Shown here piece by piece: positions 11,348-56,865 of a stretch of DNA of 64,000 nucleotides. The stretch lies in the NCBI RefSeq assembly GCF_900230285.1, contig NZ_OCNK01000001.1, positions 1,178,001-1,242,000 on the forward strand, written 5' to 3'. This stretch comes from Blastococcus haudaquaticus. Its GTDB lineage: Bacteria > Actinomycetota > Actinomycetes > Mycobacteriales > Geodermatophilaceae. Under the pieces are notes generated by a model that was not told the DNA's origin, did no database searches, and was given only the letters and a program-made list of their open reading frames with translations. Both the position numbers and the translations under genes were made by a program. How positions within the stretch are numbered: the stretch's first letter is position 1; each line of letters begins with the position of its first letter.

Positions 11348-11392
11348 AAGGACCCCGTCCCCCTCACGCTCAGGTGAGCCGCGGACGGGGCC
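11348..11392 (+). repeat. Dispersed AAGGACC stem-loop element, copy 1 (after desaturase gene)
   Basis: Starts 2 nt after the desaturase stop. The outer stem GGACCCCGTCC pairs with GGACGGGGCC with one bulged A. The centre here is ctcacgctcaggtgag, a second small stem, and differs from the CTCGCAGGCTCG centre of most other copies. Confidence 0.7.
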
Positions 11393-11397
11393 GTAGA

Positions 11398-11438
11398 CCG
11401 GAGAGGCCCAGGACCCGCGTGGTCCTGGGCCTCTCCGG
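11398..11438. terminator. Bidirectional terminator hairpin between convergent genes
   Basis: Perfect 18-bp inverted repeat: ccggagaggcccaggacc (11398-11415), loop cgcgt, mirrored at 11421-11438. It lies between the convergent desaturase gene and the minus-strand small ORF, whose stop is at 11440. No long T-run follows, as is usual in GC-rich actinobacteria. Confidence 0.85.
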
Positions 11439-11439
11439 T

Positions 11440-11859
11440 TCATGGCTCGCCGACCCCGCCGGGCTCAGACCGCCAGGTCAAGTTGTCGAGCCGCCGGCCG
11501 ACCACGGCACCTACGGGCACGTGGGCGATCTCCGCCAGGTCCTCCAGCGTCGCTGACACGACGTCCTCGAACTCCGCGTAGCCGATCACGTCAGGTCCCA
11601 TGCCCGCCGAGACGTAGTAGCCCGTGATGGCCAGCCGCACGTCGGCGGGGGAGACGTCGAGGTCGCGCACCACGGCGGTCGTGGTGGCCCGCATGGAGCT
11701 CATCCCGGAGAAGGCACGCCCGCAACCGCACCCACCGTCCGGATCGGCCTGGTCCGTCGCGCAGACGAACCCCGGCAGGACGAGTTCCCCTTCGATCGCG
11801 AAGCAGAAGTCGCCGTCCTGCTCGCCCTGTCCTTCTCGCGTCGCCGTCAGCAGCTTCAT
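11440..11859 (-). CDS. Conserved actinobacterial hypothetical protein (Cys-rich motif, DUF7715-like)
   Basis: 139-residue soluble protein starting MKLLTATREGQGEQDGDFCF. It has a cysteine cluster FVCATDQADPDGGCGCGRAF (residues about 31-50) and MSSMRATTTAVVRDLD after it. I recall similar short actinobacterial proteins of unknown function with this N-terminus and CGC cluster; the DUF number is from memory. The cysteines may bind metal. It is a single-gene unit between two strong hairpins, with no informative neighbour. Confidence 0.62.
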   Translation of the reverse strand: MKLLTATREGQGEQDGDFCFAIEGELVLPGFVCATDQADPDGGCGCGRAFSGMSSMRATTTAVVRDLDVSPADVRLAITGYYVSAGMGPDVIGYAEFEDVVSATLEDLAEIAHVPVGAVVGRRLDNLTWRSEPGGVGEP

Positions 11860-11912
11860 GCGGGCACCGTGCCACTGCGGTCCGACAGTTCGACGCGTCC
11901 CACGTGGAACGG

Positions 11913-11949
11913 GGAGGGGCCCAGGACCGTCACGGTCCTGGGCCCCTCC
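11913..11949. terminator. Terminator hairpin downstream of the lipase-like gene
   Basis: Perfect 17-bp inverted repeat: ggaggggcccaggaccg (11913-11929), loop tca, mirrored at 11933-11949. It lies 21 bp beyond the minus-strand stop at 11970. A one-mismatch parS-like site (11897-11910) is immediately beside it. Confidence 0.85.
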
Positions 11950-11969
11950 GCGGCACCCCGGCCGGCCGG

Positions 11970-13874
11970 TCAGGGCCTCAGCGCGGGGTTCGGGAAGTTG
12001 AGGGGCAGCAGCACGGCGGGATCGTTGATCGGCACCTCCCAGACGGCTCCGGTGCCGTCCGGGTCGGCCACCCGCCCGCTGCGCAGGAACTCCGACACCT
12101 GCGCCAGGCCCTGCAGCCAGGCCGGGTTGTCCGGGTTCAGCAGGAACGAGTGCGGGTTGTCCGTGCGACCGGTGCGGTCGTGGCGGTACAGGCTGGTCCG
12201 CGACCACAGGTCACCCGCGTCGACGAGCGTGTAGGACGTCGGGTTGGGCACCGTCTGGTCGCCGAGGGCCACCTGCAGCAGCACCCGGCGATCGTCGATC
12301 AGCGGCGCGAACGTCTCCGGGCTCCCCGGCCGGCTCAGCCACGTCGCCTTCGCCAGGTGGTCCTGGATCGCCAGCGCTCCCGGGACGGTCGCCGTCACCG
12401 GGCCCTCACCGCGCAGCGGAAGCTGTTCCTGGAAGAACGCCCGACTGCGGTCCTGGCTGTTGAGCAGCCCGGCCGCCTGCAGCGACTGGGTGGTCAGCAG
12501 CCGGAAGGCGGGCGCCAGCCGCGCGATCTCGGTGATCGGCCCACCTGGCACGTTGAGCACCGCCCGGCTGATCGCCGGGTCCGCCCCGGTGAGCATCGAG
12601 CCGTAGATGCCGCCGAAGCTCTGCCCGAAGTAGGTCACGCCGCGGCCCGAGAGGTCGGGGGATCGGTCACCGTCGACGTCGGTGTCCAGGGACCGCACCA
12701 GCGTCATGATGTCGGCTGCCGTCTGCCGCAGCGCGTCACGGGAGGAGACCGCGGCGGCGCCCCCGCTGGCCGAGGATCCCTCACTGGCCTCGATGTCGCC
12801 GTCGCCGTCCTGGTCGATGCCTCGGCCGTATGCCGGCAGCGTCGTCGTCGTGCCGCCGCTGGTGACCCGCCACGTGCTGCCCGGCCCGTAGCCGTGGCCC
12901 ACCACGTTGGTGGCGATGGTGGCGATGCCCTCGGCGGCGTTCGTGGTGGCGGCGAGGAAGGCGGCGTTCGTGGAGCTGGTGAAGCCGTGCCCGAAGACGG
13001 CAACCGGCCACCCGCCGGCCGGGGCCTTGCCTGCCGGCAGCACGGCGACGAAGGGCAGTCGCGCCGCGGCCACCGGGAGGGGGCCGAAGTCACGGGTCGG
13101 GGTCTGGCGGATCGTGACGTCCGGCTGCAGCCAGGACGGCGCGAGGTAGGAGCCGAAGACCAGCAGGCTGCCCGCGGGGAGTTGCTGGGTCGGCACGGGG
13201 GCCGGGGCCGGGTCGACCGTGCCGCGGTCCTGTGCCCAGTCGACGGTCGTGCCGGCCGCCGGGAACGTCCCCTCCACCCGCAGCCCGGGGGCGATACCGA
13301 CGGCGCCGAGCGCTCGTCCGCCGACGTCGATCTGCCGGCGCAGGTCCACCAGGCCGTCGGTCGCGCTCATCGTGGTGAACGTGTCCTGGGCGGCCTTGTT
13401 CGCCGGCCCGCCCTGGACGCTCAGCCGGTAGGTCGTGCCCGGGGCGAGCTGTTCGGCCGGATGGGCGTAGACCGTGTTCGAGGCCCGGTCGTAGACGACG
13501 CGGTCGACGCCGGTGCGCCAGCCGCCGCGCGACTCCTGGACCGTGATGCGCTGGGCCATCTGCGCGGGATCGACCGGGGCGCTGAACGTGACGGCGAGCC
13601 GAGGGTCGAGGTCGAAGCCGTCGAGCTCGTTGAGCCGCTGCACCAGCCCGCAGGTGATGGCCGGGCCGCAGTTCTGCGTGGGCAGGGCCACGCGACGGCC
13701 GGTGAGCTGCCGGCCGTCGGGGACGGTGAGGGAGTTGCTGGGGAACAGGGACACCGGGTCGGCCTTCGGCTGGGGCGCAGCGAGGGCCGAGGGTGCGGTG
13801 GCGGCGAACGTGGCGGTGAGGGCCAGCGCGCCGACGGCGGACATCGTCGTCCGCCGCCAGGAACGAAGGGTCAC
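11970..13874 (-). CDS. Secreted lipase/esterase-like alpha/beta hydrolase with EF-hand calcium loop
   Basis: About 634 residues from a GTG at 13874 with an AGGAG ribosome site. The signal peptide is RSWRRTTMSAVGALALTATF, with likely cleavage after SALAAP. An N-terminal Ig-like region (FDLDPRLAVTFSAPVDPAQM) precedes an alpha/beta hydrolase core with VAVFGHGFTSSTNAAF (oxyanion region) and the nucleophile elbow TYFGQSFGGIYGS. Between them is DQDGDGDIEASE, an exact EF-hand loop, and later DTDVDGDRSPD. The layout resembles large bacterial lipases with a Lipase_bact_N-type front end. Substrate unknown; extracellular location is inferred from the signal peptide. Confidence 0.78.
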   Translation of the reverse strand: MTLRSWRRTTMSAVGALALTATFAATAPSALAAPQPKADPVSLFPSNSLTVPDGRQLTGRRVALPTQNCGPAITCGLVQRLNELDGFDLDPRLAVTFSAPVDPAQMAQRITVQESRGGWRTGVDRVVYDRASNTVYAHPAEQLAPGTTYRLSVQGGPANKAAQDTFTTMSATDGLVDLRRQIDVGGRALGAVGIAPGLRVEGTFPAAGTTVDWAQDRGTVDPAPAPVPTQQLPAGSLLVFGSYLAPSWLQPDVTIRQTPTRDFGPLPVAAARLPFVAVLPAGKAPAGGWPVAVFGHGFTSSTNAAFLAATTNAAEGIATIATNVVGHGYGPGSTWRVTSGGTTTTLPAYGRGIDQDGDGDIEASEGSSASGGAAAVSSRDALRQTAADIMTLVRSLDTDVDGDRSPDLSGRGVTYFGQSFGGIYGSMLTGADPAISRAVLNVPGGPITEIARLAPAFRLLTTQSLQAAGLLNSQDRSRAFFQEQLPLRGEGPVTATVPGALAIQDHLAKATWLSRPGSPETFAPLIDDRRVLLQVALGDQTVPNPTSYTLVDAGDLWSRTSLYRHDRTGRTDNPHSFLLNPDNPAWLQGLAQVSEFLRSGRVADPDGTGAVWEVPINDPAVLLPLNFPNPALRP

Positions 13875-14001
13875 GAGTACTCCTGGTGTGTCGGGGGTCC
13901 CCTTCCTACGTGACGGTGATCCAGGCCACACACGCGGGGTCACTGGACGGTCACTGGCGGCGCGGTGCGGAGATGCCCGAGCACGGCGAGCACTGCACGG
14001 G

Positions 14002-14034
14002 AGAGGCCCGGAACCGCAAGGATTCCGGGCCTCT
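14002..14034 (-). terminator. dnaB terminator hairpin
   Basis: Perfect 12-bp inverted repeat (agaggcccggaa at 14002-14013, mirrored at 14023-14034, 9-nt loop) located 17 bp beyond the dnaB stop on the minus strand. Confidence 0.85.
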
Positions 14035-14050
14035 GGTGGAGGTGCCGCGG

Positions 14051-16666: not shown

Positions 16667-16887
16667 GGTTGTCCTCCATCTCGTGCGGGCGCGCCCGCGG
16701 CACCACTCCGAGGGGAAGCCGGAGTTCGGCGAGCGCGCCGGACCGAACGTCTGTTCGGTGATTGCTACCGCCAGGCACTGACATGTTGGACGGAGCCAAG
16801 TCCGGCGCCTGGCGGCAGCTGGGGAGGACGTTAGGAAGCCGGAGGGGGGCCCGTCCAACACCGGTGTGCACGTCGATCTGCACAACT

Positions 16888-16896
16888 TGTGGACAA
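16888..16896 (-). promoter_or_regulatory. DnaA box upstream of dnaB
   Basis: tgtggacaa is the exact reverse complement of the actinobacterial DnaA box TTGTCCACA. It is about 220 bp upstream of the dnaB start and embedded in a small palindrome (acttgtggacaagt). Confidence 0.7.
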
Positions 16897-17206
16897 GTCG
16901 GTGGATTCACGCCTGTCGACATGTGGAGACGGCGGGGGACACGCGGCGGCCATCCGCCGTCCCCCCTGCCGTCACCTGCGGGAACGGGATCCACGGGCTG
17001 TGGACGGCAGAAAGTTCTCAACAATTTTCCGGGGCGCGCACCACGAGTCCCACGCTCCCCCGGACCCGTCTCCCCGCCCGGGGAGACCGGTCGTCGCGCC
17101 TGGGAGGCGGGACGTCGCGCCTGCGCCCCCCGGGGCACCGGAGCCGCCGCCAGCACCTCCACGGGGCGCACAGCGGGCCGGCGCCCGGTTCGGGTCCCGG
17201 GACGAC

Positions 17207-17242
17207 GGAAGGGGCGCCGGACCGCAGTCCGACGCCCCTTCC
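17207..17242 (-). terminator. Terminator of the rpsF-ssb-rpsR-rplI operon
   Basis: Inverted repeat ggaaggggcg (17207-17216) with cgccccttcc (17233-17242), extended by an inner cggac/gtccg pair. It lies 27 bp after the rplI stop on the minus strand. Confidence 0.8.
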
Positions 17243-17268
17243 GGGCTGGCCCCCGCAGGGGCCCTGGC

Positions 17269-17724
17269 TCAGCCGGGGACGACCTCGATCGTCAGCTGGG
17301 TCGTGACCTCCGGGTGCACCCGCACGGTGACGCTGTGCTCGCCGGTGGTCTTGATGCTGCTGGGCAGCTCGATCCGGCGGCGGTCGAGCTCCGGACCACC
17401 CGCCGCGGAGACCGCGGCGGCCACGTCGGCGGTGGTGACGCGGCCGAACAGCCGGCCGCCCTCACCGGCGCGGGCCGGGACCTGCACCCTGAGGCCGGTC
17501 AGACGCCCGGCCACGGCCTGCGCGTCCTCGTGCGAGGCGACCTCGCGGGCGGCACGCGCCCGACGGAGCGACTCGACCTGCTTCTGGGCACCACGGGTGG
17601 CCGCGATGGCCAGGCCGCGGGGCAGGAGGTAGTTGCGGCCGTAGCCGCCCTTGACCTCGACGGTGTCACCGGAGGAACCGAGACCGGTGACCTCCTGCGT
17701 GAGGATCAGCTTCATGGTGCTCAT
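17269..17724 (-). CDS. rplI: 50S ribosomal protein L9
   Basis: About 151 residues. The N-terminal rRNA-binding domain is MKLILTQEVTGLGSSGDTVE with GGYGRNYLLPRGLAI, followed by the connecting helix (QVESLRRARAAREVASHEDA) and the C-terminal domain (LFGRVTTADVAAAV, SIKTTGEHSVTVRVHPEV). Full length for the family. The ATG at 17724 lies 2 nt after the rpsR stop; a second ATG three codons later (17715) gives the canonical MKLIL start. Neither has an SD site, so it relies on coupling to rpsR. Confidence 0.97.
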   Translation of the reverse strand: MSTMKLILTQEVTGLGSSGDTVEVKGGYGRNYLLPRGLAIAATRGAQKQVESLRRARAAREVASHEDAQAVAGRLTGLRVQVPARAGEGGRLFGRVTTADVAAAVSAAGGPELDRRRIELPSSIKTTGEHSVTVRVHPEVTTQLTIEVVPG

Positions 17725-17726
17725 GA

Positions 17727-17963: not shown

Positions 17964-17993
17964 TGGGTTCTCCAGAAAGTGAGGTGATGGAGC

Positions 17994-18049
17994 GGCCGCT
18001 CGCCGGGGCCCGCGCCGAACGGAGAGGCGTGGGGGGCGAGGGGGTCCTT
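17994..18049 (-). repeat. Dispersed AAGGACC stem-loop element, copy 2 (between ssb and rpsR)
   Basis: Read on the minus strand it begins 2 nt after the ssb stop with AAGGACCCCC and ends GGCGAGCGGCC. The outer stem CTCGCC/GGCGAG is capped by GGACC/GGCC. It lies inside the ribosomal operon, upstream of the rpsR ribosome site, so it cannot be a simple full terminator. Confidence 0.7.
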
Positions 18050-18051
18050 CT

Positions 18052-18555
18052 TCAGAAGGGCGGTTCGTCCGACGGTCCGGCGGGCGTCGACCAGGGGTCG
18101 CTCGCTCCGCCGCCACCGCCGCCACTGCCGCCACCGGAGAAGCCGCCACCGCCGCCGCCGCCACCACCGAAGCCGCCGCCACCCTCACCGCGCGATGCGC
18201 GGGTGACCTTCGCGGTGGCGTAACGGAGGGACGGGCCGATCTCGTCGACCTCGAGTTCGATGACGGTGCGCTTCTCGCCTTCCTTCGTGTCGAAGGAGCG
18301 CTGCTTGAGGCGGCCGCTCACGATGACCCGCGAGCCCCGCGTCAGCGACTCGGCCACGTTCTCCGCGGCCTGACGCCAGACGTTGCAGCGGAGAAACAGC
18401 GCTTCGCCGTCCTTCCACTCCTGCGACTGGCGGTCGAAGGTGCGCGGGGTCGACGCGACGGTGAAGTTGGCGACGGCAGCGCCCGACGGCGTGAAGCGCA
18501 GCTCCGGATCGGCGGTGAGGTTGCCGATGACGGTGATGACGGTTTCGCCGGCCAT
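18052..18555 (-). CDS. ssb: Single-stranded DNA-binding protein
   Basis: 167 residues. The OB-fold ([20 protein letters not shown] to about residue 115) is followed by a Gly/Ser-rich linker (about 123-150, nearly all glycine) and the acidic tail ending DEPPF, the protein-interaction tip. It lies between rpsF and rpsR as in most bacteria. Clear ATG at 18555, two bases after the rpsF stop. Confidence 0.97.
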
Positions 18556-18557
18556 GG

Positions 18558-18845: not shown

Positions 18846-19022
18846 GGAGAACCCCACCTCCTCTGGACTTGGCGGCTGCAGGACGTCTGCAGCAGGAGGG
18901 TCGTGCATGCGTCGCGCGCCCCGACAGGTGTCGAGAGCGCGCTGATCCAGGTTACCAGCGCCCGGGAACGCGGCGGCGGCCGCCGTCCCCGGGGGACGAC
19001 GGCCGCCGGCCGGGTGCGCTCG

Positions 19023-25668: not shown

Positions 25669-25708
25669 GACCGCCGCCACCTGCCGTCCCCGACACCGCG
25701 GAGCCGCC

Positions 25709-25767
25709 GGGCCGCGCTGCAGGGGCCCGCCGCGAGCTTGCGAGCGGTGGGCGGCAGCGGGGTCCTT
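25709..25767 (-). repeat. Dispersed AAGGACC stem-loop element, copy 3 (divergent gap before padR)
   Basis: On the minus strand it runs AAGGACCCCGCTGC to GCAGCGCGGCC, with the centre CTCGCAAGCTCGCGG. It is one of the few copies not directly after a stop codon: it lies upstream of two divergent genes. Confidence 0.75.
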
Positions 25768-25770
25768 CTG

Positions 25771-25804
25771 CTGCGCGGACCCCTCCGGGGCCCACTCGGC
25801 GCGA
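25771..25804 (+). repeat. Second dispersed repeat, partial copy
   Basis: ctgcgcggacccctccgggg followed by cccactcggcgcga. It shares this core with copies at 42900-42950 (+) and 53713-53761 (-), but lacks their agccgctgagtc left part. Confidence 0.7.
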
Positions 25805-25830
25805 CCCCGAGGGTCGCCATGTCATGGCTT

Positions 25831-26480: not shown

Positions 26481-27547
26481 AGGTCGCCATCGTCGGCGTC
26501 GGGAACTGCGCGGCCTCGCTCGTGCAGGGCGTGGAGTACTACCGGGACGCCGACGAGACCACGTCGGTCCCGGGGCTCATGCACGTCCGCTTCGGCGAGT
26601 ACCACGTCTCCGACGTCGAGTTCGTCGCCGCGTTCGACGTGGACGCCAAGAAGGTCGGGCGTGACCTCTCCGAGGCCATCGTCGCCAGCGAGAACAACAC
26701 GATCAAGATCGCCGACGTCCCGCCGCTCGGCGTGACCGTGCAGCGCGGCACCACGCTGGACGGGCTCGGCAAGTACTACCGCGAGATCGTCGAGGAGTCC
26801 GACGAGCAGCCGGTGGACATGGTCGCGGCGCTGCGGGAGTCCGGTGCCGACGTCCTCGTCTGCTACCTGCCCGTCGGTTCGCAGCAGGCCGCCGAGTTCT
26901 ACGCCCAGGCCGCCATCGACGCGGGCGTGGCCTTCGTGAACGCCCTGCCGGTGTTCATCGCCGGGACCAAGGAGTGGGCGGACAAGTTCACCGCCGCCGG
27001 TGTCCCGATCGTCGGAGACGACATCAAGAGCCAGGTCGGGGCCACCATCACCCACCGCGTGCTGGCGAAGCTGTTCGAGGACCGCGGTGTCCAGCTCGAC
27101 CGCACCATGCAGCTCAACGTCGGCGGCAACATGGACTTCAAGAACATGCTCGAGCGCGAGCGCCTGGAGTCCAAGAAGATCTCCAAGACCCAGTCGGTCA
27201 CGAGCCAGGTCGACCGCGACATGGGCAAGGGCAACGTCCACATCGGCCCGTCGGACCACGTGCCGTGGCTGTCGGACCGCAAGTGGGCCTACGTCCGCCT
27301 CGAGGGCCGCGCCTTCGGCGACGTCCCGCTGAACCTGGAGTACAAGCTCGAGGTGTGGGACTCGCCGAACTCGGCCGGCATCATCATCGACGCCGTCCGG
27401 GCCGCGAAGATCGCCAAGGACCGCGGCATCGGCGGCCCGATCCTGTCGGCGTCCTCGTACTTCATGAAGAGCCCGCCGGTGCAGTACGACGACAGCGAGG
27501 CCCGCGACGCCGTCGAGGCGTTCATCGCCGGCACCATCGAGCGCTGA
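26468..27547 (+). CDS. ino1: Inositol-3-phosphate synthase
   Basis: 359 residues. NAD-dependent isomerisation of glucose-6-phosphate to inositol-3-phosphate, the first step to phosphatidylinositol, mannosides and mycothiol. Motifs: [17 protein letters not shown] (NAD fold), [58 protein letters not shown] and [16 protein letters not shown]. Length is that of the short actinobacterial form. Coupled to padR by overlap. Confidence 0.97.
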
Positions 27548-27549
27548 AC

Positions 27550-27607
27550 AAGGACCACCCTTCCCCCGACGCCTCGCAGGCTCGGCGCGGGACCCTGAAG
27601 GGTGGCC
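27550..27607 (+). repeat. Dispersed AAGGACC stem-loop element, copy 4 (after ino1)
   Basis: Starts 2 nt after the ino1 stop. Outer stem GGACCACCCTTC pairs fully with GAAGGGTGGCC apart from one bulged A. Centre: cctcgcaggctcggcg. Confidence 0.8.
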
Positions 27608-27691
27608 GCTCCAGTACCTCGCCTGGGCCCGCGTCTCCTCCGGGGACGCGGGCCCTGCCGCGTCCTGCGGGGTGTGGAGCCGCCCGCTGCC

Positions 27692-40035: not shown

Positions 40036-41055
40036 GTGCCGCCCGTGAGTGACTTCCCATCGCCTGGTCCCGCCGTGACGACGGAGGGGATCGTCGACCC
40101 CGTCATCCCGCCTGCCGAGCACGACGGCATCCGTGACCTGATCATCATCGGCTCCGGCCCCGCCGGGTACACGGCGGCCACCTACGCCGCCCGGGCGAAC
40201 CTGCACCCGCTGGTGTTCGAGGGCTCGCAGTTCGGTGGCGCGCTCATGACCACCACCGAGGTGGAGAACTTCCCCGGCTTCCCGCATGGCATCCAGGGCC
40301 CGCAGCTCATGGACGACATGCGCACGCAGGCGGAGAAGTTCGGCGCCGAGCTGGTGCCGCGCGACGTCACCGAGGTCGACCTCACGGCCACGCCCAAGAT
40401 CGTGAAGGTGGGCGACGAGGTGCACCGCGCCCACGCGGTGATCGTCGCCACCGGTTCCAAGTACCGCTACCTCGGGCTGGACAACGAGCAGCGCCTGCTG
40501 GGCCGCGGCGTCTCGGCCTGTGCCACGTGCGACGGCTTCTTCTTCCGCGACCAGGACATCGTGGTGGTCGGTGGCGGTGACTCCGCGATGGAGGAGGCCA
40601 CCTTCCTCACCCGGTTCGCCAAGAGCGTCACCGTCGTGCACCGGCGGAACGAGCTGCGCGCCTCCAAGATCATGGTCAAGCGCGCGCAGGACAACGAGAA
40701 GATCCGCTGGGCGCTCGGCAAGCAGGTCACCGACGTGCTGGGGGAGACCACCGTCGACGCCGTCCAGGTCACCGACGTCGAGAGCGGCGCCACCGAGACG
40801 ATGACCGTGAGCGGCCTGTTCGTGGCGATCGGCCACGACCCCCGCAGCGAGCTGTTCGCCGGTCAGTTGAAGCTCGACGACGAGGGCTACATCCAGGTGG
40901 AGCACCCGAGCACCCGGACCAGCATCGACGGCGTCTTCGCCTGCGGCGACGTGGTCGACCACATCTACCGGCAGGCCATCACCTCGGCCGGCACCGGCGC
41001 GGCGTCGGCGATCGATGCCGAGCGCTGGCTCGCCGACACCTTCGACGAGAGGTAA
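40036..41055 (+). CDS. trxB: Thioredoxin reductase
   Basis: 339 residues. A leader of about 30 residues precedes the FAD motif [20 protein letters not shown]. The redox centre is [11 protein letters not shown], the NADPH motif [20 protein letters not shown], and the C-terminal FAD contact [20 protein letters not shown]. It reduces the thioredoxin encoded next to it using NADPH. In mycobacteria and Streptomyces sigM/rsm genes lie between murJ and trxB; here only 32 bp do. GTG start with a likely leaderless promoter. Confidence 0.96.
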
Positions 41056-41109
41056 GGACCCCTCTGCCCCACCGCTCGCAGGCTCGCGGCGGGACGCTGC
41101 ACAGGGGCC
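41054..41109 (+). repeat. Dispersed AAGGACC stem-loop element, copy 5 (trxB-trxA)
   Basis: Overlaps the trxB TAA stop. Outer stem GGACCCCTCTGC with GCACAGGGGCC (one mismatch, one bulged A), centre ctcgcaggctcg. Placed between two co-directional genes expected to be co-transcribed. Confidence 0.8.
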
Positions 41110-41180
41110 GGGCATGAATCCACCCGCCGGTCGGTTGACCTGACAGGTACCCCGCAAGCCGAGACAAGGGAGAACGACCC

Positions 41181-45434: not shown

Positions 45435-45459
45435 GCGCACACTGCCACGCACAAAGAGT

Positions 45460-46595: not shown

Positions 46596-47630
46596 TCACG
46601 AACTCTCCTGCGTGCTGACTGCGTGCTGCGCCACGGGCGGCACGGCGACCCCGGCCATGCCGGGGCGGTCGAGCGGTGGCAGATCGACGCCGCGCTCGGC
46701 GAGCTGCCGCGCCGCCTCCACGTAACTGGTCGAGCCGCGCGACCCGGGGTCGTAGGTGAGCACCGACTGGCCGTAGCCCGGCGCCTCGGAGACGCGGACG
46801 TTGCGGGGGATGACCGCCGGCAGCACGAGCTCGCCGAAGTGGTTGCGCACCTCGTCGGCCACCTGATCGGCGAGCTTCGTCCGGCCGTCGTACATGGTGA
46901 GCAGGATGGTCCGCACAGCGATGCCCGGGTTGAGGTGCTGGCGGACCAGGTCGATGTTGTTGAGCAGCTGCCCGAGGCCCTCCAGCGCGTAGTACTCGCA
47001 CTGGATGGGGATGAGCACCTCGTCGCCGGCGACGAGCGCGTTCAACGTGAGCAGGCCGAGCGACGGCGGGCAGTCGATGAGCACGTAGTGCGGGCGCTGC
47101 TCGGGCGGGAGCTCGTGCACGTAGGCCTCGATGGCCCGGCGCAGGCGGTGCTCGCGGGCCACGACGGAGACCAGCTCGATCTCGGCGCCGGCCAGGTCGA
47201 TCGTGGCCGGGACGCAGAGCAGCTTCGGGCTGGCCGTCGTCGGGTGGACCACCTCGCCCAGGGAGTTGTCCCCGACGAGGGCGTCGTAGACCGACGGGGT
47301 GCCGACGGTGTGCTCCACGCCGAGGGCCGTGCTGGCGTTCCCCTGGGGGTCGAGGTCGATGACCAGGGTCCGGAGCCCGTAGAGGGCGAGCGCCACCCCC
47401 AGGTTCACCGTGGACGTCGTCTTGCCGACGCCGCCCTTCTGGTTCGCGATGGTGATGACCCGGATCCGGTTCGGCGCCGGGAAGGGTTCCTGGTCGGCGG
47501 CGTGCAGCACGCGCGTCGCGCGCATCGCCTCCATGGCGATGGGGCTGTCGAAGTCGGCCATCCCGGCCGAGGACGACGATGACTGGTCGGCGGCCAGGCT
47601 GCTGCGCAGCCGTTCGCCCGGGTCGGTCAT
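46596..47630 (-). CDS. parA: Chromosome-partitioning ATPase ParA
   Basis: 344 residues from an ATG with AGGAGGG nine nt upstream. The deviant Walker A motif is [20 protein letters not shown], followed by [13 protein letters not shown] and [21 protein letters not shown] disordered leader of about 55 residues precedes it ([20 protein letters not shown]). A perfect and a one-base-variant parS lie 40-84 bp upstream, so ParB probably regulates this operon. Confidence 0.97.
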
Positions 47631-47669
47631 CGGTCGTCCCTCCTGCATGCCCTGCTCATGTCCCCAGCC

Positions 47670-47683: not shown

Positions 47684-47700
47684 GCGGATCCGGCGGTCCT

Positions 47701-47714
47701 GTTCCACGTGGAAC
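47701..47714. other. parS site (perfect), upstream of parA
   Basis: gttccacgtggaac. With the site at 47670 it forms a close pair in the rsmG-parA gap. Confidence 0.92.
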
Positions 47715-47719
47715 GGAGG

Positions 47720-47775
47720 AAGGACCCCCGGCCCCCCACCGCTCGCACGCTCGCGTCGGGACCCTGCAGGGGGCC
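47720..47775 (+). repeat. Dispersed AAGGACC stem-loop element, copy 6 (rsmG-parA gap)
   Basis: aaggacccccggcccccc with centre ctcgcacgctcgcg and ending gggggcc. It is oriented opposite to the surrounding minus-strand genes and ends 2 bp from the rsmG stop. Confidence 0.75.
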
Positions 47776-47777
47776 GC

Positions 47778-48458
47778 TCACCGAGTTCCCCGCGTCATGA
47801 CCACCACGGTAGTGGCAGCGTCCCCCAGCTCCGCACCGACGGCCCGCGGATGCACGTCCCGCATCCCCGCAGCGGTCAGCTCGGGCAGCAGGCGGGGCAG
47901 GTCCTGGAGGGCCCTGGCCCCGACGAGCGCCACCAGCTGCGTGCCCGGGCGCATCAGCCCGCGGCACCAGGCGACGAGGCGGGGGAGGGGAGCCACCGCC
48001 CGGGCGGTGACGACGTCGACCGGTCCGACCGCCGAGACGACCGAGCGCTCCTCCGCCCGGCCGCGGACCACCCGCCACGGACGCCCGCCGTCCGGCGCGA
48101 GGTCGGCCACCGCCTGGTCGAGGAACTCGACCCGCCGCGACATCGGTTCGACCAGGGTCAGCGCGAGGTCGGGGCGTGCCAGCCCGAGCGGGATGCCCGG
48201 AAGCCCGGCACCGCTGCCGACATCCACGACGTGCGCGTCCTGCGGGACCGCCTCGGCCACGGCCGCGCTGTTGAGCACGTGCCGGTCCCACAGCCGGGGG
48301 ACCTCCCTCGGTCCGATGAGGCCGCGGACCACACCGTCACTCGCCAGCCGGGCGACGTACCGCTCCGCCCGGGGGAGGGCGGAGCCGAACACCTGGTGGG
48401 CGGTCGACGGCGTCGGCGGGGCCCCGTCCCCCGGGGGATCCTCCTCTGCGCCGCTCAT
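47778..48458 (-). CDS. rsmG: 16S rRNA (guanine527-N7)-methyltransferase RsmG
   Basis: 226 residues. Motifs: RLWDRHVLNSAAVAEAVP, VVDVGSGAGLPGIPLGLARP (SAM site), LVEPMSRRVEFLDQAV, VVTARAVAPLPRLVAWC and a basic region after. Loss of this enzyme gives low-level streptomycin resistance in other bacteria. The ATG at 48458 follows AGGTGAG. The khpB stop is 7 bp upstream. Confidence 0.95.
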   Translation of the reverse strand: MSGAEEDPPGDGAPPTPSTAHQVFGSALPRAERYVARLASDGVVRGLIGPREVPRLWDRHVLNSAAVAEAVPQDAHVVDVGSGAGLPGIPLGLARPDLALTLVEPMSRRVEFLDQAVADLAPDGGRPWRVVRGRAEERSVVSAVGPVDVVTARAVAPLPRLVAWCRGLMRPGTQLVALVGARALQDLPRLLPELTAAGMRDVHPRAVGAELGDAATTVVVMTRGTR

Positions 48459-48465
48459 CGAGTTC

Positions 48466-49161
48466 TCACCTGTCGGGCAGGACCACGACGCGGCGGTTCG
48501 GCTCCTCGCCCTCGGACTCGCTGTGCACACCGGCGACCGAGGCGATGACGTCGTGCACGACCTTGCGCTCGAACGGGTTCATGGGCGACAGCCGCTCGGG
48601 CTGACCGCTCGAGGCGACCCGGCCGGCCGTCTCACCGGCCAGCGTCGTGAGGTCGGCACGGCGCTTGGCCCGGTACTCGCCGACGTCCAGCATGAGCCGG
48701 CTCCGGACGCCCGTGGACTGGGCGACGGCCAGCCGGGTCAGCTCCTGGAGCGCCTCCAGCGTGGCGCCGTCCGGGCCGATCAGGTCGGTGAGCTTCCCGC
48801 CGACGATCGCCACGGAGGCCCGGTCGCCCTCGACGTCGAGGTCGATGTCCCCGTCCTTGTCCAGGATGTCGAGCAGGCGCTCGAGGTAGTCCCCGGCGAC
48901 GTCACCCTCCCGGACGAGGAGGTCATCGCCGTCCTCATCGTCCTCATCGTCCTCAGCCGCCCCGGCTGCCCCATCGGCATCGGTGTCGACCGGCTCGATC
49001 ACCGCGTCGGCACCCAGGGCGTCGTCGACGGCCGGCTCCAGGATGTCGTCGGGGTCACCCACGCCGCTGGCGGCCGGCGTCAGCACGGTGCGGGTAGCGG
49101 TGTCGTCCCCCAGTGCGGTGTCGGTCGGTGCGGTGTCGGTGGGCTGCTGCGGGGCACTCAC
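48466..49161 (-). CDS. khpB: KhpB/Jag RNA-binding protein (KH and R3H domains)
   Basis: 231 residues. A long acidic, disordered N-terminus (AAEDDEDDEDGDDLLVREGD) precedes a KH domain (DLDVEGDRASVAIVGGKLTD with LIGPDGATLEALQELTRLAV) and an R3H domain (PMNPFERKVVHDVIASVAGV, SEGEEPNRRVVVLPDR). It is encoded with yidC in most Gram-positives and linked to cell-wall synthesis and division through RNA binding. The acidic run is encoded by three gtcctcatc 9-bp repeats (48931-48957). Confidence 0.93.
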   Translation of the reverse strand: MSAPQQPTDTAPTDTALGDDTATRTVLTPAASGVGDPDDILEPAVDDALGADAVIEPVDTDADGAAGAAEDDEDDEDGDDLLVREGDVAGDYLERLLDILDKDGDIDLDVEGDRASVAIVGGKLTDLIGPDGATLEALQELTRLAVAQSTGVRSRLMLDVGEYRAKRRADLTTLAGETAGRVASSGQPERLSPMNPFERKVVHDVIASVAGVHSESEGEEPNRRVVVLPDR

Positions 49162-50673: not shown

Positions 50674-51083
50674 CACGGCCGGGTCCCCCGGTCGCCGAGC
50701 AGGCGGGCCAGGCCCGCGCTCAGGTCGCGACGAAGGTCCTCGGATGCCGCCGTACCCGCCTCGGGCCGGGCCCGGACGACGAGGTCCGCTGAGGCCGGCA
50801 GCCGGTGCAGTTCGTCCCGGACCACGGCGCGCAGCCGTCGGGTCACGCGATGACGGACCACCGAGTTGCCGACGGCCTTGCCGACCACGAAACCGACCCG
50901 GGCACCGGGTGCGCGCGCGGGCGTGTCACCTGTCGCCGACCGCGACAGGGAAGGCGGAACGGCCTGCTCGGGCCGTTCGGGGAGGTAGTGGAGCACCATG
51001 GTCGGCCGCCCGGCGCGCCTGCCGGACCGGACGACCGCGGTGAACTCCGGACGCCGGCGCAGGCGTGCCTGCGCGGGCAGCAC
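50673..51083 (-). CDS. rnpA: Ribonuclease P protein component
   Basis: 136 residues from a GTG one base after the rpmH stop. [40 protein letters not shown] (RNR motif region) and [13 protein letters not shown] are conserved. Binds the RNase P RNA for 5' maturation of tRNA. Confidence 0.95.
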
Positions 51084-51084
51084 G

Positions 51085-51222
51085 TCAGGCGGAAAGGTTC
51101 TCGCGACCCTTGCGCCGACGACCGGCGAGGATCGCCCGGCCCGCGCGGGTACGCATCCGCAGCCGGAAGCCGTGGGTCTTCGACCGTCGGCGGTTGTTCG
51201 GCTGGAACGTGCGCTTGCTCAC
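51085..51222 (-). CDS. rpmH: 50S ribosomal protein L34
   Basis: 45 residues: [47 protein letters not shown] start with TAGGAG seven nt upstream. Too short for many ORF searches. First gene of the minus-strand rpmH-rnpA-yidD-yidC block and divergent from dnaA. Confidence 0.97.
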
Positions 51223-51861
51223 GAGGTACTCCTACTACATGACATCGGCGGTGCGCACCCGCCGGTGGGCGAGCACGCGCGGGGCGACCGGGACGAACGG
51301 CGACGTGCCGCGCCCACGACCCCGGAGGCTGGTCACTGCGGCGCGGAACTCCCCGCTCCCCACCTGCACGGGAACCGCGCGGGCGACGGAGGCGGCCGGA
51401 ACCGTCCACAGACTCCAGCCAGCATAACCGAGATCGTGCTGGTGCCGAAGGGCGGGCGGACCGCGACCGCCGATGATCCCCCCGCGCGACCCCCGCATGG
51501 CGGCGGCACGCCGCAGGCGACGCGCCCGGGCTGCCCGGCCGAGCGTTGCCGGGCTGTGGATGGGGCTGTTAGCGTCGCCGTCGCTCCGCGTCGGACGTCA
51601 GGGTCACGACGTGTGGGCCGACCCCGTCGGTCAGCCGACCACCGAACCGTCCGCTCTCCCGCCGTTTCCGGCCGTCGACCTGCAGGAATGCGGATCGGTG
51701 TCGGCTCCGGCACACGGACCCGGCAGCATCCGTCGCCGACCGTGCACAGCCTGTGGACACCGGTGTGGAATGACTGCGTCCACACATCCACAGCGGGACC
51801 GTCGAGCGGTCGCCGGAACGCCGTCGACCGGGGTCGACACCGATGGGGAGGAAGAAGCGGC
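51223..51861. other. rpmH-dnaA intergenic region with DnaA-box-like sites (639 bp)
   Basis: No gene supported. Contains DnaA-box-like sites (TTGTCCACA with 1-2 mismatches): 51402-51410 (ccgtccaca), 51752-51760 (tgtggacac, reverse), 51776-51784 (gcgtccaca), plus looser tgtggatgg near 51554 and catccacag near 51785. Divergent promoters for rpmH and dnaA must be here; dnaA autoregulation is likely. Confidence 0.75.
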
Positions 51862-53601
51862 ATGGCCGATGCCACGCTGGACCTGGCGACCGTCTGGGAC
51901 CAGATCCGCGAGCGGCTGGCGACGAGCCTGTCCCCTCAGCAGAACGCGATGCTGAACCTGACCCGCCCCCTCGGGCTGGTCGAGGACACGGCCGTTCTCG
52001 CTGCTCCCAACGAGTTCACCCAGACCGTCCTCGAGTCCCGCATGCGCCGGGTGCTGGCCGAGGCGCTGTCCGAGCAGTTCGGGCGCGACATCCGCGTCGC
52101 CGTCCAGCTGGAGGACTCGCCTCCGGAGCCGGCGACCGAGACCCGCGACCAGGAGCCCACCCGTCGCCCCTGGACGGCGGCCGAGGTGCAGCGCGCCGAG
52201 GAGGACCGGGCCAGCCGCGACCGCGCCGACGACGGACGCAGCGCGTTCGGCGTGCGCACCGACGCGGTCGGGTCCGCGCCCTGGGACCGGGACGGCCACG
52301 ACGACAGGTCGGCCCGCGCCGATTCCGAGGTCCGCGAGCTCCGGCCGGTCGACCGCGCGCCGGTCGACCGCGGTGCACCGGGGGACTGGGCCACCACCTG
52401 GGGGAGTCAGCCCACCGGTCGTGACTGGGGCGGGAACGAGGACGGCCGATCGGCCGACGTCCTGCCGTTCGACGTCGACGGCTCCGACGGGAACGACCAG
52501 CGCGGGCGGTCCGCCGCAGGGGCAGGGCGCGGACGTCGTCCGGACGCCGGTCGCCCGGCCGGCCTGGACCCCGGCATGAACCCCAAGTACGTCTTCGACA
52601 GCTTCGTCATCGGCAACAGCAACCGGTTCGCCCATGCCGCGGCCGTCGCGGTGGCCGAGGCACCCGCCCGCGCCTACAACCCGCTGTTCATCTACGGGGA
52701 ATCGGGGCTGGGCAAGACCCACCTGCTGCACGCGATCGGTCACTACGCGGCGCGGATGTTCCCGAACGTGAAGGTGCGCTACGTCAGCACCGAGGAGTTC
52801 ACGAACGAGTTCATCAACCTGGTGCACTCCGGCCGGGCCGAGGACTTCCGCCGTCGCTACCGGGACATCGACTTCCTGCTGATCGACGACATCCAGTTCC
52901 TCGAGCGGGCCGAGCGCACGCAGGAGGAGTTCTTCCACACCTTCAACACGCTGCACAACGCCAGCAAGCAGATCGTCATCACCTCCGACCGCGCGCCGAA
53001 GAAGCTGACGACGCTGGAGGACCGGCTGCGCACGCGGTTCGAGTGGGGCCTGATCACCGACGTCCAGGCGCCCGACCTCGAGACCCGCATCGCCATCCTC
53101 CGGAAGAAGGCCTGGGGCGAGCGGCTCCAGGTGCCCGACGCGGTGCTGGAGTTCATCGCCAGCAAGGTGCAGACGAACATCCGCGAGCTCGAGGGCGCGC
53201 TGATCCGGGTCACCGCGTTCGCCAGCCTCAACAAGCAGCAGGTCGACCTGCCCCTGGCCGAGCTGGTGCTCAAGGACCTGATCAGCGACGAGCAGGGCCC
53301 GCAGATCACCGCGGCGATCATCATGGCCGCGACCGCCGAGTACTTCTCCGTGACGATGGAGGAGCTCCAGGGCAGCAACCGGAGCCGGACGCTGGTCAAC
53401 GCCCGGCAGATCGCGATGTACCTGTGCCGCGAACTCACCGAGCTGTCACTGCCCCGGATCGGAGCCTCCTTCGGCGGCAAGGACCACACCACGGTCATGC
53501 ACGCGGTCAAGAAGATCACCAACCTGATGAGCGAGCGCCGGGCCACGTACACGCAGGTCACGGAGCTGACGGCCCGCATCAAGAGCCGCGCCCGGCAGTA
53601 G
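51862..53601 (+). CDS. dnaA: Chromosomal replication initiator DnaA
   Basis: 579 residues. Domain I begins [20 protein letters not shown]. Domain II is a long disordered acidic/Arg-rich linker (about 100-235) as in other actinobacteria. Domain III (AAA+) starts [20 protein letters not shown] with Walker [16 protein letters not shown], Walker [12 protein letters not shown] and [20 protein letters not shown]. Domain IV carries the box-binding signature [23 protein letters not shown] at 51862 with GGGGAGGAAG upstream. A stem-loop element follows the stop. Confidence 0.98.
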
Positions 53602-53658
53602 AAGGACCCCGTCCTCCCCACCCCTCGCACGCCCGTGGGCGGTGCCCTGGACGGGGCC
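53602..53658 (+). repeat. Dispersed AAGGACC stem-loop element, copy 7 (after dnaA)
   Basis: Begins at the base after the dnaA stop TAG with one intervening g. Outer stem GGACCCCGTCC/GGACGGGGCC with one bulged A, identical in stem sequence to the copy after the desaturase gene. Confidence 0.8.
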
Positions 53659-53712
53659 ACTCCGGACCGCACCGCCCACGGGCGACGGATCAGAGGGGAC
53701 GGGACGGCACAC

Positions 53713-53761
53713 GTCGCGCCGAGTGGGCCCGGAGGGTCCGCGCAGGCGTGACTCAGCGGCT
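53713..53761 (-). repeat. Second dispersed repeat, full copy 2
   Basis: Inverted relative to the copy at 42900-42950: on the minus strand agccgctgagtcacgcctgc, gcggaccctccgggcccact, cggcgcgac. Confidence 0.75.
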
Positions 53762-53829
53762 CAGCCAGCTGGGGGACGGCACGTGGAGGCGGTGTCGTCC
53801 GGAGGACGACAGAGTGGTTGTCCCGGGGG

Positions 53830-53838
53830 TTGTCCACA
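53830..53838 (+). promoter_or_regulatory. Perfect DnaA box in oriC
   Basis: ttgtccaca, followed by gccgtggacag, a second imperfect inverted box. Confidence 0.85.
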
Positions 53839-54596
53839 GCCGTGGACAGAAGTCGACAGCGACGATGCCCTGATCGGAGGCGGTGGCCGCCGGTGGCCGG
53901 CCGGTGACCGCCGTCGACTCATCGAGAAGTTGTCCCCAGGAATGTGCACAGGTTGGGGAGATCTCGTGCCCGCCGGGTCACGGCAGGTCACCGGCCCCTG
54001 CGTCCCGGTCGGCCGGGCTCGAACTCGTACTCGCCCCTGACCTGCGGGTATGGGCCTGTCGTCGCCTGAGAGCGGCACGGCGTCGGATCCCGGTCGCTCG
54101 TCCCTGGGCACGACCTGGGGATCCACCCGGGAGACGCAGGGGACAGGGGGTGGACGGCGGCGGGCAGCGGTGAACAACCGTAGAGATGTCCACGTGTCGA
54201 CACAGGCGGGACGGTCACCGCCCACAGTCGGCCAACAGGCCCATTCCTGCCCTGACCTGCGCGAAGGGCCCCGATCCCCAGCTTCCACACGTGTGATGAC
54301 GAGGATGAGGGAGTTATCTCGATGAATCCTTGAACCACATTCTGGGTGGGGACGCTCCGCTCAGGGGGCCCCGAGGGCCAGCAGGAAGGGCAGCGGGACG
54401 GGGTCTCGCGCGGGGGCGTCGGCCCGGGTCCCGAGGTGCTCGACCAGCTCATCGAGGGACCGGGGTTTCCCCCCGGGGGACCGCAGCAGGCACGATGAGC
54501 ACCGCACCGGCACAGGACGCCCCCGCGTCCTGCCCGCCGGTATCGGGAAGCCGCACCCGCCAGAGGGTCGGGATCAGAGCTGGGGTGGGTCGAGAG

Positions 54597-55757
54597 ATGA
54601 AGTTCCGGGTGGCACGTGAGGTGCTCGCCGACGCCGTCGCGTGGACGGCGCGCAGCCTGCCGCCTCGACCGTCGGTGCCCGTACTGGCCGGCATCCTGCT
54701 CGAGGTCGACGGGAACCAGCTGTCGGTGTCGGGCTTCGACTATGAGGTCTCGGCCCGCGCCGAGGTCGACGTCCAGGCCACCGAGAGCGGCCGGGCACTG
54801 GTCCCGGGCCGGCTGCTGGCCGAGATCACCCGGGCGCTCCCCCCGCACCCGGTCGAGATCACCGCCGAGGGCCCCAGGCTGGCTCTCGTCTGCGGCAACG
54901 CCCGCTTCAGCCTGCCGACGCTGCCGGTGGAGGACTACCCGTCCCTGCCGTCGATGCCGTCCTCGGCCGGGCTCGTCGACAGCGACGTCTTCGCCGAGGC
55001 GGTGGGCCAGGTCGCCGTCGCCGCCGGACGGGACGACACGCTGCCGATGCTCACCGGCGTGCGCCTGGAGATCGAGGACGACCTGATCACGCTGGCGGCC
55101 ACGGACCGCTACCGCCTCGCGGTGCGCGAGTTCGCCTGGCGCCCCGAGACGCCGGGTGTCTCCGCCGCCGTGCTGGTTCCGGCACGCACCCTGGCCGAGG
55201 CCGCGAAGACGCTGACCAGCGGCCCGGAGATCGTGCTCTCGCTGTCGTCGGGGAGCTCCGGCGAAGGCATCCTGGGCCTCTCCGGCAAGGACCGGCAGAC
55301 CACGACCCGCCTGCTCGACGCCGAGTTCGTGAAGTACCGCGCGATCATGCCGAACGACTCGAACTCCCACGCGTCCCTGCCGGTGGGCCTGTTCACCGAC
55401 GCGGCCAAGCGCGTCGCCCTGGTCGCCGAGCGAGGCACGCCCCTGCGCTGCGAGTTCACCCCGGGGCAGGTCACGCTGCACGCCGGCGGCTCGGACGAGG
55501 AGGGCCAGGCCGAGGAGCGGTGCGACGTCGAGTTCGACGGCGAACCGCTCACCATCGGCTTCAACCCGACGTTCCTGCTCGACGGCCTGGCCGCCGTGCA
55601 CACCGAGCGGGCCCGGATCGACTTCACCAGCCCGCTCAAGCCGGCCGTGCTCTCCGGTGTGGAGGAGCCGGCGGCCGACGACGGCAAGCCGGCCGGCCCG
55701 GCGGAGCGCACCGGGAGCTACCGCTACCTGATCATGCCGGTGCGCCTGCCCGGCTGA
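54597..55757 (+). CDS. dnaN: DNA polymerase III sliding clamp (beta subunit)
   Basis: 386 residues, full length. Starts MKFRVAREVLADAVAWTARS; domain motifs VPVLAGILLEVDGNQLSVSG, DTLPMLTGVRLEIEDDLITL, ATDRYRLAVREFAW and the C-terminal YRYLIMPVRLPG. The homodimeric ring holds polymerases, including the DinB at the left of this window, on DNA. The ATG at 54597 was chosen by homology; the long open frame upstream is arginine-rich shadow. Confidence 0.98.
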   Translation: MKFRVAREVLADAVAWTARSLPPRPSVPVLAGILLEVDGNQLSVSGFDYEVSARAEVDVQATESGRALVPGRLLAEITRALPPHPVEITAEGPRLALVCGNARFSLPTLPVEDYPSLPSMPSSAGLVDSDVFAEAVGQVAVAAGRDDTLPMLTGVRLEIEDDLITLAATDRYRLAVREFAWRPETPGVSAAVLVPARTLAEAAKTLTSGPEIVLSLSSGSSGEGILGLSGKDRQTTTRLLDAEFVKYRAIMPNDSNSHASLPVGLFTDAAKRVALVAERGTPLRCEFTPGQVTLHAGGSDEEGQAEERCDVEFDGEPLTIGFNPTFLLDGLAAVHTERARIDFTSPLKPAVLSGVEEPAADDGKPAGPAERTGSYRYLIMPVRLPG

Positions 55758-55759
55758 AA

Positions 55760-55817
55760 AAGGACCTCGTCGCCCCCCACCACCCGCACGCTCGCGGTGG
55801 GACCCTGCGACGAGGCC
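55760..55817 (+). repeat. Dispersed AAGGACC stem-loop element, copy 8 (after dnaN)
   Basis: Starts 2 nt after the dnaN stop. Outer stem GGACCTCGTCGC pairs fully with GCGACGAGGCC apart from one bulged A; centre cacccgcacgctcgcggtgg. Confidence 0.82.
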
Positions 55818-55872
55818 GTCGGCCGGGCACGATGAGCAGGAAACTCGATAACACGAAAGAGGGGACGACGTC

Positions 55873-56805
55873 GTGCAGCTGGGGCTTGTCGGGCTGGGCA
55901 AGATGGGCGGCAACATGGCCGAGCGGCTGCGCCGCGGAGGTCACGAGGTCGTCGGTTACGACCACTCACCGGGCAAGCGGGACGTGGACAGCCTGCCCGC
56001 GCTCGTCGAGGCGCTGAGCGCGCCGCGCGTGGTGTGGGTGATGGTCCCGGCCGGTGAGCCGACCAAGGCCACCGTCAAGGAGCTCGGCGAGCTGCTGAGC
56101 CCGGGCGACGTGGTGATCGAGGGCGGTAACTCCAAGTACACCGACGACCAGGTGCACGACGTCATGCTGCGCGAGAAGGGCATCGGCTACATCGACGCCG
56201 GAGTCTCCGGCGGCGTGTGGGGCCTGGAGAACGGCTACGCGCTGATGGTCGGCGGCACCAAGGAGGACGTCGCCAAGGCACAGCCGATCTTCGACGCGCT
56301 CCGGCCCCCGACGCCGGAGGACGCGTCCGGTCAGGCCATGCCGGGCGTGGGCTTCGTGCACGCGGGTCCCGTGGGCGCGGGGCACTTCAGCAAGATGGTC
56401 CACAACGGCATCGAGTACGCGATGATGCAGGCCTACGGCGAGGGCTACGAGCTGCTGGCCGCCGTCGACCTGATCGAGGACGTCCCCGGCGTCGTCGCCT
56501 CGTGGACGCAGGGCACCGTCATCCGCTCGTGGCTGCTCGACCTGCTGGTCCGGGCGCTGCAGGAGGACCCCGAGCTCGAGCGCATCAAGGGCTACGCGGA
56601 GGACTCCGGCGAGGGCCGGTGGACCGTGGAGCAGGCGATCGAGAACGCCGTCCCGATGCCCACGATCGCCGCCTCGCTGTTCGCCCGCTTCGTGTCCCGC
56701 CAGGACGACTCGCCGACCATGAAGGCCGTCGCCGCGCTGCGCCAGCAGTTCGGCGGCCACGCGGTGCACGCCGTCCAGGCGCAGGAGGCCGAACGGCCGG
56801 CATGA
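55873..56805 (+). CDS. gnd: 6-phosphogluconate dehydrogenase, decarboxylating (short NAD-type)
   Basis: 310 residues, the short GndA/YqeC form rather than the 470-residue form. NAD fold [20 protein letters not shown], then [58 protein letters not shown] (catalytic Lys) and [18 protein letters not shown]. It oxidises 6-phosphogluconate to ribulose 5-phosphate in the pentose phosphate pathway. Its place between dnaN and recF is shared with Streptomyces and other actinobacteria. GTG start. Confidence 0.95.
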
Positions 56806-56807
56806 CG

Positions 56808-56865
56808 AAGGACCCCCGTGCCCCCCACCACTCGCAGGCTCGCGGCGGGGCCCTGCACGGGGGCC
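56808..56865 (+). repeat. Dispersed AAGGACC stem-loop element, copy 9 (after gnd)
   Basis: Starts 2 nt after the gnd stop. Outer stem GGACCCCCGTGC pairs fully with GCACGGGGGCC apart from one bulged A; centre ctcgcaggctcgcgg. Confidence 0.82.

Follow-up and report, generated by a model that had tools for sequence, protein, structure and literature searches.

Background

What kind of sequence keeps its base pairing while its bases change from copy to copy? The question is raised by a window of 64,000 nucleotides (nt) from Blastococcus haudaquaticus (contig NZ_OCNK01000001.1, positions 1,178,001–1,242,000). An earlier note, made from the letters of this window alone, described nine copies of an intergenic stem-loop element with differing complementary arms. 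It took the arms as the mark of a selected RNA (or cruciform) structure, and considered a terminator, an mRNA 3'-end stabiliser, a protein-binding RNA and a mobile element resembling the repetitive extragenic palindromes (REPs). The analysis presented here shows the element to be, very probably, a family of small non-autonomous REP-like mobile DNA palindromes, about 58–80 bp in length, that would be copied by an enzyme acting in trans.

A repeat family of the Geodermatophilaceae

A covariance model, R1, was built from 31 copies in the same genome and was used to scan this genome and its relatives, as the earlier note had proposed. The element is present elsewhere in both, with covariation above that of shuffles. 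All nine copies of the window are at the positions first described and R1 matches each of them, with E values of 8e-17 to 2.5e-5; eight of the nine (all except copy a) were used to build R1, so those eight matches are partly by construction. The next-best match in the window has an E value of 0.55. The positions given for the two minus-strand copies, 17994 and 25709, are their low ends, and the starts on their own strand are at 18049 (copy b) and 25767 (copy c).

The strict pattern AAGGACCCCN{2,12}CCCCCACC has 30 matches in the 4.51 Mb genome and 0 when reversed. R1 has at least 150 matches, with copies on nine of the 11 contigs, and 161 distinct copies were examined. The number first counted was 162, with one place seen twice (L052:9 = L057:1501); the analyses of flank composition, tail and fold energy used the 162 copies or a filtered part of them. 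Between copies, divergence is common. A difference at 2–6 of about 58 positions from the nearest related copy is found in 109 of the 161, as determined among copies with a length difference of no more than 6 (which left the short copy L037:1542 without a partner). This divergence fits an older or slow family.

Among genomes of the Geodermatophilaceae, R1 matches 101 of 112, from nine of the 12 genera. In a set of 61 genomes it matches 32, own genome included, and these represent 32 of the 37 members of the same family; the other 24 genomes, which belong to different families of the same order, have no match. Within what was searched, the element is confined to the Geodermatophilaceae. Copy number is uneven, e.g., four in genome G067, two in G076 and nine in G080. 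In many genomes the matches reach or approach the limit on scored candidates (at most 150, 86 or about 46 per genome), and copy numbers per genome are therefore lower bounds. Genome G015, from the same genus as the window, shows one weak match in one scan and none in the other, and G061 is a further relative with almost no copies.

Presence, absence and orientation of copies

The nine window sites were compared in six congeners, where flank identities are 83–95% upstream and 68–95% downstream. By eye, 47 site-genome combinations are readable: seven have a copy, three have a remnant and 37 have none. Copies are present at site a in G008, at site g in G011 and G002, at site h in G010 and G008, and at site i in G011 and G008. 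The remnants are at sites c and h in G011 and at site d in G002.

A second comparison used the dnaN/gnd locus of 80 DnaN relatives, labelled Blastococcus, Geodermatophilus, Modestobacter, Klenkia and a few others. Counts are for 78 loci (L105 and L137 were left out and L131 was dropped; gnd is frameshifted in L108). A model match at E ≤ 0.05 is present at the dnaN 3' site, i.e., the dnaN-gnd gap, in 37 of the 78 loci, eight of them inverted, and at the gnd 3' site in 39 of the 78, three of them inverted. Presence differs between species whose gnd genes are 93–96% identical (L125/L133 and L119/L100 at the dnaN site; L094/L128 and L099/L121 at the gnd site). A copy nested within another copy is found in L079, L083, L086, L092 and L103. 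Of the options listed at the outset, it is the REP-like mobile element that is upheld by the copy number, the presence and absence between relatives, the inverted and nested copies and the restriction to one family.

Several copies or fragments can occupy one intergenic gap (L084:7351–7540 and 8518–8580; L113:7348–7458; L064 from 8514). Those in the L113 gap are in mixed orientation, and such multi-copy gaps are somewhat like the bacterial interspersed mosaic elements (BIMEs) formed by REPs. The element's 3' half is repeated in tandem, with a unit ending in GGCCGTTCCAGCACSTCACC, behind gnd in the Modestobacter records L122 (from 8394) and L136 (from 2325). One record of the locus set, L072 (SPQJ01000041.1), is labelled 'Bacillus sp. 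AZ43' and flagged unverified. Its DnaN is 93% identical to that of the window, which suggests a genome of the Geodermatophilaceae.

Position relative to stop codons

In the own genome, 114 of the 161 copies have the stop of a coding-like frame ending at -2 to +4 nt of the AAGG, with 57 at +2. These stops are TGA (82), TAG (21) and TAA (11). Of the 161 copies, 22 have such a stop at the mirror position on the opposite strand, and 0–4 have one at each of seven shifted positions. Six of the 161 copies are within a coding-like frame. Gene ends were called here by an open frame and the GC content of third codon positions (GC3), with no gene finder. The adjacency to stop codons that had been described for the window holds for seven of the nine copies, which abut a sense-strand stop; copies c and f do not.

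A G at position -4 is present in 83% of 83 gene-end copies and in 74% of 55 other copies, a class that was defined by offsets 0–4 only and from which some copies were later reassigned to gene ends. The G in both classes hints at a sequence preference, provided that it is not part of the element itself. The filled dnaA sites end in TAG and the copy-free ones in TGA or TAA, and the TAA stop of trxB is completed by the AAGG of copy e itself; thus the element can supply a stop. REPs of the GTAG superfamily are likewise able to supply a TAG stop to an upstream open reading frame (ORF), as described in the available text of PMC3733652.

Sequence, fold and covariation

The consensus of the own-genome copies is GAAGGACCCC-NNN-G-CCCCCCACC-GCTCGCANGCTCGC-GGCGGG-NCCCTGC-NNN-GGGGCC, with 12 invariant columns among 36 aligned copies. 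The outer stem has 11 pairs and an unpaired A between pairs 2 and 3, and the inner stem has eight pairs. This agrees with the fold first drawn, which lacked one property: of 31 copies, 25 have a sense-strand A.C mismatch at one pair of the inner stem, and four have A-T there. A longer 3' tail, which starts with G(T/C)TCCA and is often CAGCACGTCACC, is present in 32 of the 161 copies. Other subfamilies exist, e.g., CCCCGTCCTCCTCACCCCTCGC...GGGGCGAGCCTCGGGACGGGGCC, and copy g has a form with TCCCCACCCC...GGGCGGTGCCC.

The arms are highly variable, with 66 distinct 9-nt arms among 147 own copies that have the anchor (one place counted twice), and their covariation is confirmed. The alignment of 31 copies has 41 cells changed on both sides of the pair, where shuffles have a mean of 11.3 and none of 500 is as high; slid controls give 5–12. 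A second measure, 'further pair types', is weaker and is reached by 23 of the 500 shuffles. The sequence AAGGACCCC, with at most one mismatch, has 27 matches where 16.1 are expected, and none of 100 shuffles has as many. The loop motif alone, with at most three mismatches, has 19 matches where 18.9 are expected from shuffles; it does not exceed chance and was dropped as a search probe. Rfam has no match in the window at the gathering score. Two matches of low score at positions 53500–57000 (E values of 6 and 9.7) are unrelated, and neither is on a copy.

RNA or DNA

A sense RNA under selection is expected to allow G.U pairs in its arms and to avoid A.C ones. This is not what is found, and the proposal, in its original form, that covariation of the arms is the mark of a selected RNA has no support: with all 11 outer pairs counted, the sense strand has 35 G.T and 32 A.C in own copies, and 31 and 30 in relatives. 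Outer positions 3–10, a range that was picked after the table was seen, show the opposite of the expectation. Here A.C exceeds G.T by 32 to 14 in own copies (p 0.011), by 28 to 16 in relatives (p 0.096), and by 60 to 30 when the two are pooled (p 0.002). The stem foot and the last outer pair are rich in G.T. Pair counts are from 145 of 162 own and 91 of 103 relative copies, the others having failed the anchor or length fit. Folded as the antisense strand, 156 of 162 own copies and 94 of 103 from relatives are more stable than as the sense strand, compared with 84 of 162 control stretches. Taken together, and as an indirect argument, the pairing and fold data do not favour a sense RNA; an antisense-strand hairpin, of DNA or RNA, would agree with them.

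Copies at the same site in different records also change in pairs. In 101 comparisons there are 139 double changes with Watson-Crick pairs in both copies, 96 one-sided changes and 37 other double changes; the comparisons are non-independent and include the duplicate records L079/L236, L118/L232 and L102/L105. The changes include C-G to G-C swaps with no wobble intermediate. Each of three processes could produce such paired changes: independent insertions of different copies, selection on pairing, or correction templated by the hairpin. A more specific model is that mobile palindromes which land at stop codons, with no known HUH transposase, have their arms rewritten pairwise as one arm is copied through the hairpin. 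We consider this conceivable and on balance doubtful. If it were true, the arms would stay complementary while their sequence changed freely.

Search for a mobilising enzyme

Domain Y1_Tnp (PF01797), which is that of RAYT and IS200/IS605 proteins, was searched for in two sets. It is absent from the first 37 family genomes and from all 112 family genomes (96 of these ≥ 90% complete), and a RAYT/IS200 mobiliser was rejected; the controls matched in five of 14 cases. Reverse transcriptase (PF00078) was rejected as the mover, 19 of 32 element-bearing genomes being devoid of a match, as was IS110 (PF01548), for which 12 of the 32 have none, own genome included. The search for the IS91-type Y2 domain (PF04986) gave no matches and is uninformative, as the controls had no match either. 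Half-elements that flank a transposase, as sought for a MITE of a known insertion sequence, were not noticed among the orphan matches listed (40 of 92 for the 5' half and 30 of 47 for the 3' half, in 1.26 Mb), and no gene search was made between halves. Many of the listed orphan matches are elements missed by the strict partner pattern, and others are chance matches in genes.

The window copies and their neighbours

Copy a (11344–11395, plus strand) is degenerate, with the inner stem altered or partly deleted. An ORF for a fatty-acid desaturase (PF00487) ends 2 nt upstream of it. A separate terminator-like GC hairpin, ACCGGAGAGGCCCAGGACC/GGTCCTGGGCCTCTCCGGT (11397–11439, no strand assigned), is found 3' of the copy. 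Four congeners are readable at this site; one has a full copy and three have none, and these three retain a comparable hairpin. Copy b (17991–18053, minus strand) lies 2 nt past the stop of the minus-strand gene ssb (PF00436) and separates it from rpsR (PF01084), which is on the same strand; none of four readable congeners has the copy. Copy c (25707–25771, minus strand) is in the gap before a PadR-family gene at 25824 (plus strand) and has no stop codon adjacent upstream. The remnant in G011 is a decayed one, as judged by eye. Three other congeners have no copy, and since the sequence adjacent to the element is not conserved in them, they show only the absence of a copy there. Copy d (27546–27610, plus strand) is 2 nt past the stop of ino1 (PF01658). 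Five congeners are without it, and G002 has a partial copy. Downstream is a terminator-like hairpin, GGGCCCGCGTCTCC..GGGGACGCGGGCCC (27625–27655, no strand assigned); the element-free congeners carry a GC hairpin at this place, which is near-identical in G011 and G012.

Copy e (41050–41112, plus strand) is located between a thioredoxin-reductase-like gene (trxB, PF07992) and trxA (PF00085). It is absent from all six congeners, where the upstream stop is TGA or TAG. Copy f (47716–47778, plus strand) is between parA (46596–47648, minus strand) and gidB/rsmG (47778–48530, minus strand), with its 3' end abutting the gidB stop; five of five readable congeners lack it. Its 5' side directly adjoins a parS-like palindrome, TGTTCCACGTGGAAC (47700–47715), which is likewise between parA and gidB. 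At the parS-like site, four of the five readable congeners, all except G015, have TGTTCCACGTGGAACA, and in the window the last A is a G beside the insertion.

Copy g (53598–53661, plus strand) is immediately 3' of the dnaA stop TAG. The two congeners with a copy at this site, G011 and G002, also have a TAG stop, and four are without a copy. Copy h (55756–55820, plus strand) is 2 nt past the dnaN stop. Copy i (56804–56868, plus strand) is 2 nt past the gnd stop, before recF, and its 3' tail is of the longer kind, GTTCCAGCACGTCAC. The genes on either side run in the same direction at copies b, e and i (ssb-rpsR, trxB-trxA and gnd-recF).

The gnd-recF gap of records without the element there can contain a perfect palindrome centred on ATGGCCAT, with differing complementary arms (L075:8490–8525, L098:8256–8291, L061:8365–8394, L115:2297–2326, L082:8340–8361 and L227:3349–3370). 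The Modestobacter records L073, L076 and L078 have CCAAAGTCGCGACTTTGG in its place. This palindrome is possibly an older terminator or operator before recF. It was rejected as a rival repeat family, as all six perfect ones in 1.54 Mb are in the gnd-recF gap.

Alternative explanations

A GC hairpin behind a gene can block RNA polymerase or 3' exonucleases, and the element could be a transcription terminator or a stabiliser of mRNA 3' ends that is kept vertically. The 114 copies behind stop codons agree with this, as do the stable folds (a mean of -30.2 kcal/mol compared with -26.5 kcal/mol for downstream 65-mers), and roles in termination and mRNA stabilisation have been hypothesised for REPs (PMC3733652, text in part). 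A vertically kept structure is at odds with the 37 of 47 readable orthologous sites that have no copy. Copies a and d precede terminator-like hairpins of their own, which are kept in element-free congeners, and the same layout is seen by eye in L042, L144, L161 and L186. The 3' flank has no run of T, with T at 35% or less at any position; copies b, e and i stand between co-directional genes; and there are inverted copies at the dnaN and gnd sites. As a primary role, termination or 3'-end stabilisation is very unlikely. An RNA selected on the sense strand, acting as a cis-regulatory or protein-binding structure, is very unlikely as well. It would account for the covarying arms, the conserved bulged A and loop, the sense orientation behind genes and the compensated changes between copies at the same site. 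The near-equal numbers of G.T and A.C in the outer stem, the more stable antisense fold and the high turnover between close species argue against it.

The absence of a sense-strand preference in a maintained palindrome would also suit a site that functions as DNA, i.e., a cruciform or a binding site for nucleoid or replication proteins, spread by gene conversion and selectively kept. Copies g, h, i and f adjoin dnaA, dnaN, gnd-recF and the par genes, respectively, in the window. Over the whole genome the copies are on nine contigs, gene conversion is not expected to produce a fixed stop-codon register, and a site with 0–1 matches in the congener G015 is not essential. This is the least probable of the three explanations, with hardly any likelihood of being correct.

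The family of mobile palindromes, favoured here, must be weighed against several observations. In the own genome no two copies were found to be identical, so that current activity is not supported. No target site duplication was recognised by eye in pairs of filled and empty sites, and the ends of the insertions are not placed exactly to the base. No mobiliser was found in the Y1, reverse transcriptase and IS110 searches, other enzymes not having been searched for. The G that is conserved at -4 could be part of the element and not of the target, and the paired double changes at the same site are also expected from selection on pairing. Inverted copies L061 and L085 share flanks, i.e., the inversions are not all independent events. 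Site d of G011 holds a tail-like CCAGCACC, and some copy-free sites may therefore represent deletions.

A proposed model of mobility

In the model that we propose, a putative trans-acting enzyme would copy the element into new places. Its most likely recognition feature is the hairpin, perhaps that of the antisense strand, in which the conserved A.C would become a G.T pair. On insertion, the 5' end of a new copy (consensus YNGNNG|AAGGACC) would be placed at a stop codon, and TGA and TAG fit this register. Landing at a stop would damage no gene, and the copy could even supply the stop. A resident copy may then drift, be deleted or receive nested copies. If it is transcribed, its strong hairpin, a few nt past the stop, may delay ribosomes at termination, as is reported for REPs of E. 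coli; this would be a side effect.

Relation to known repeats

Mycobacteria have MIRU elements, which are small repeats that insert at TGA-containing stop/start sites in operons and carry short ORFs. The present element is likewise a small actinobacterial repeat at stops; it differs in that it is a covarying hairpin, which the MIRU elements are not known to be.

The GTAG-superfamily REPs, associated with RAYT/Y1 proteins, share several properties with the element in the text of PMC3733652 that was available: they are high-copy, mostly intergenic palindromes near the 3' ends of ORFs, their termini are able to supply a TAG stop, and copy number differs between relatives. They are 20–40 bp, however, compared with about 58–80 bp for the element, and the mover proposed for them is RAYT, whereas no Y1 domain is found in the 112 family genomes (PMC3733652, same portions). 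The element is a longer two-part hairpin with a bulge and a conserved A.C, and is present in one actinobacterial family in what was searched. The GTAG tag at the stem foot is found in seven of 139 anchored copies and GNNG in 68, which does not identify the element as a GTAG REP. REPs with a CGTC tag are similar in that they too are REP-like palindromes; no dedicated transposase was found for them in that study (Di Nocera et al. 2013, PMC3733652, in the part consulted). Those have stems of 8–9 bp, loops of 4–5 nt and an unpaired terminal CGTC according to the same portions, whereas the foot of the element is GNNGAA. Among the 32 copies with a 3' tail, some have CGTC in this distal tail, the only place in the element where it occurs, and the CGTC-REP structure is not found. 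For the tagged REPs catalogued in PMC3733652, the phyla named in the available text do not include Actinobacteria; untagged REP-like sequences in M. tuberculosis are mentioned there.

In E. coli, 446 of 4,072 predicted REPs are within 15 nt of a stop codon, and an earlier study cited there found that such REPs stall ribosomes (PMC12306157, available portions). The element has in common with these a hairpin just past the stop, with an effect on ribosomes possible; in the element, 114 of 161 copies are in a fixed register. The portions of PMC12306157 that were available tabulate three Actinomycetota genomes, none of them from the Geodermatophilaceae. No published report of the element was found in the literature searched, which included few subscription papers.

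The finding has a consequence for the reading of such structures, in that covariation between the arms of paralogous hairpins is not, on its own, proof of a selected RNA. For the Geodermatophilaceae, a family-wide set of REP-like palindromes that is registered to stop codons and has no recognisable RAYT raises the question of which enzyme moves it, and whether that enzyme is guided by the stop sequence or by termination.

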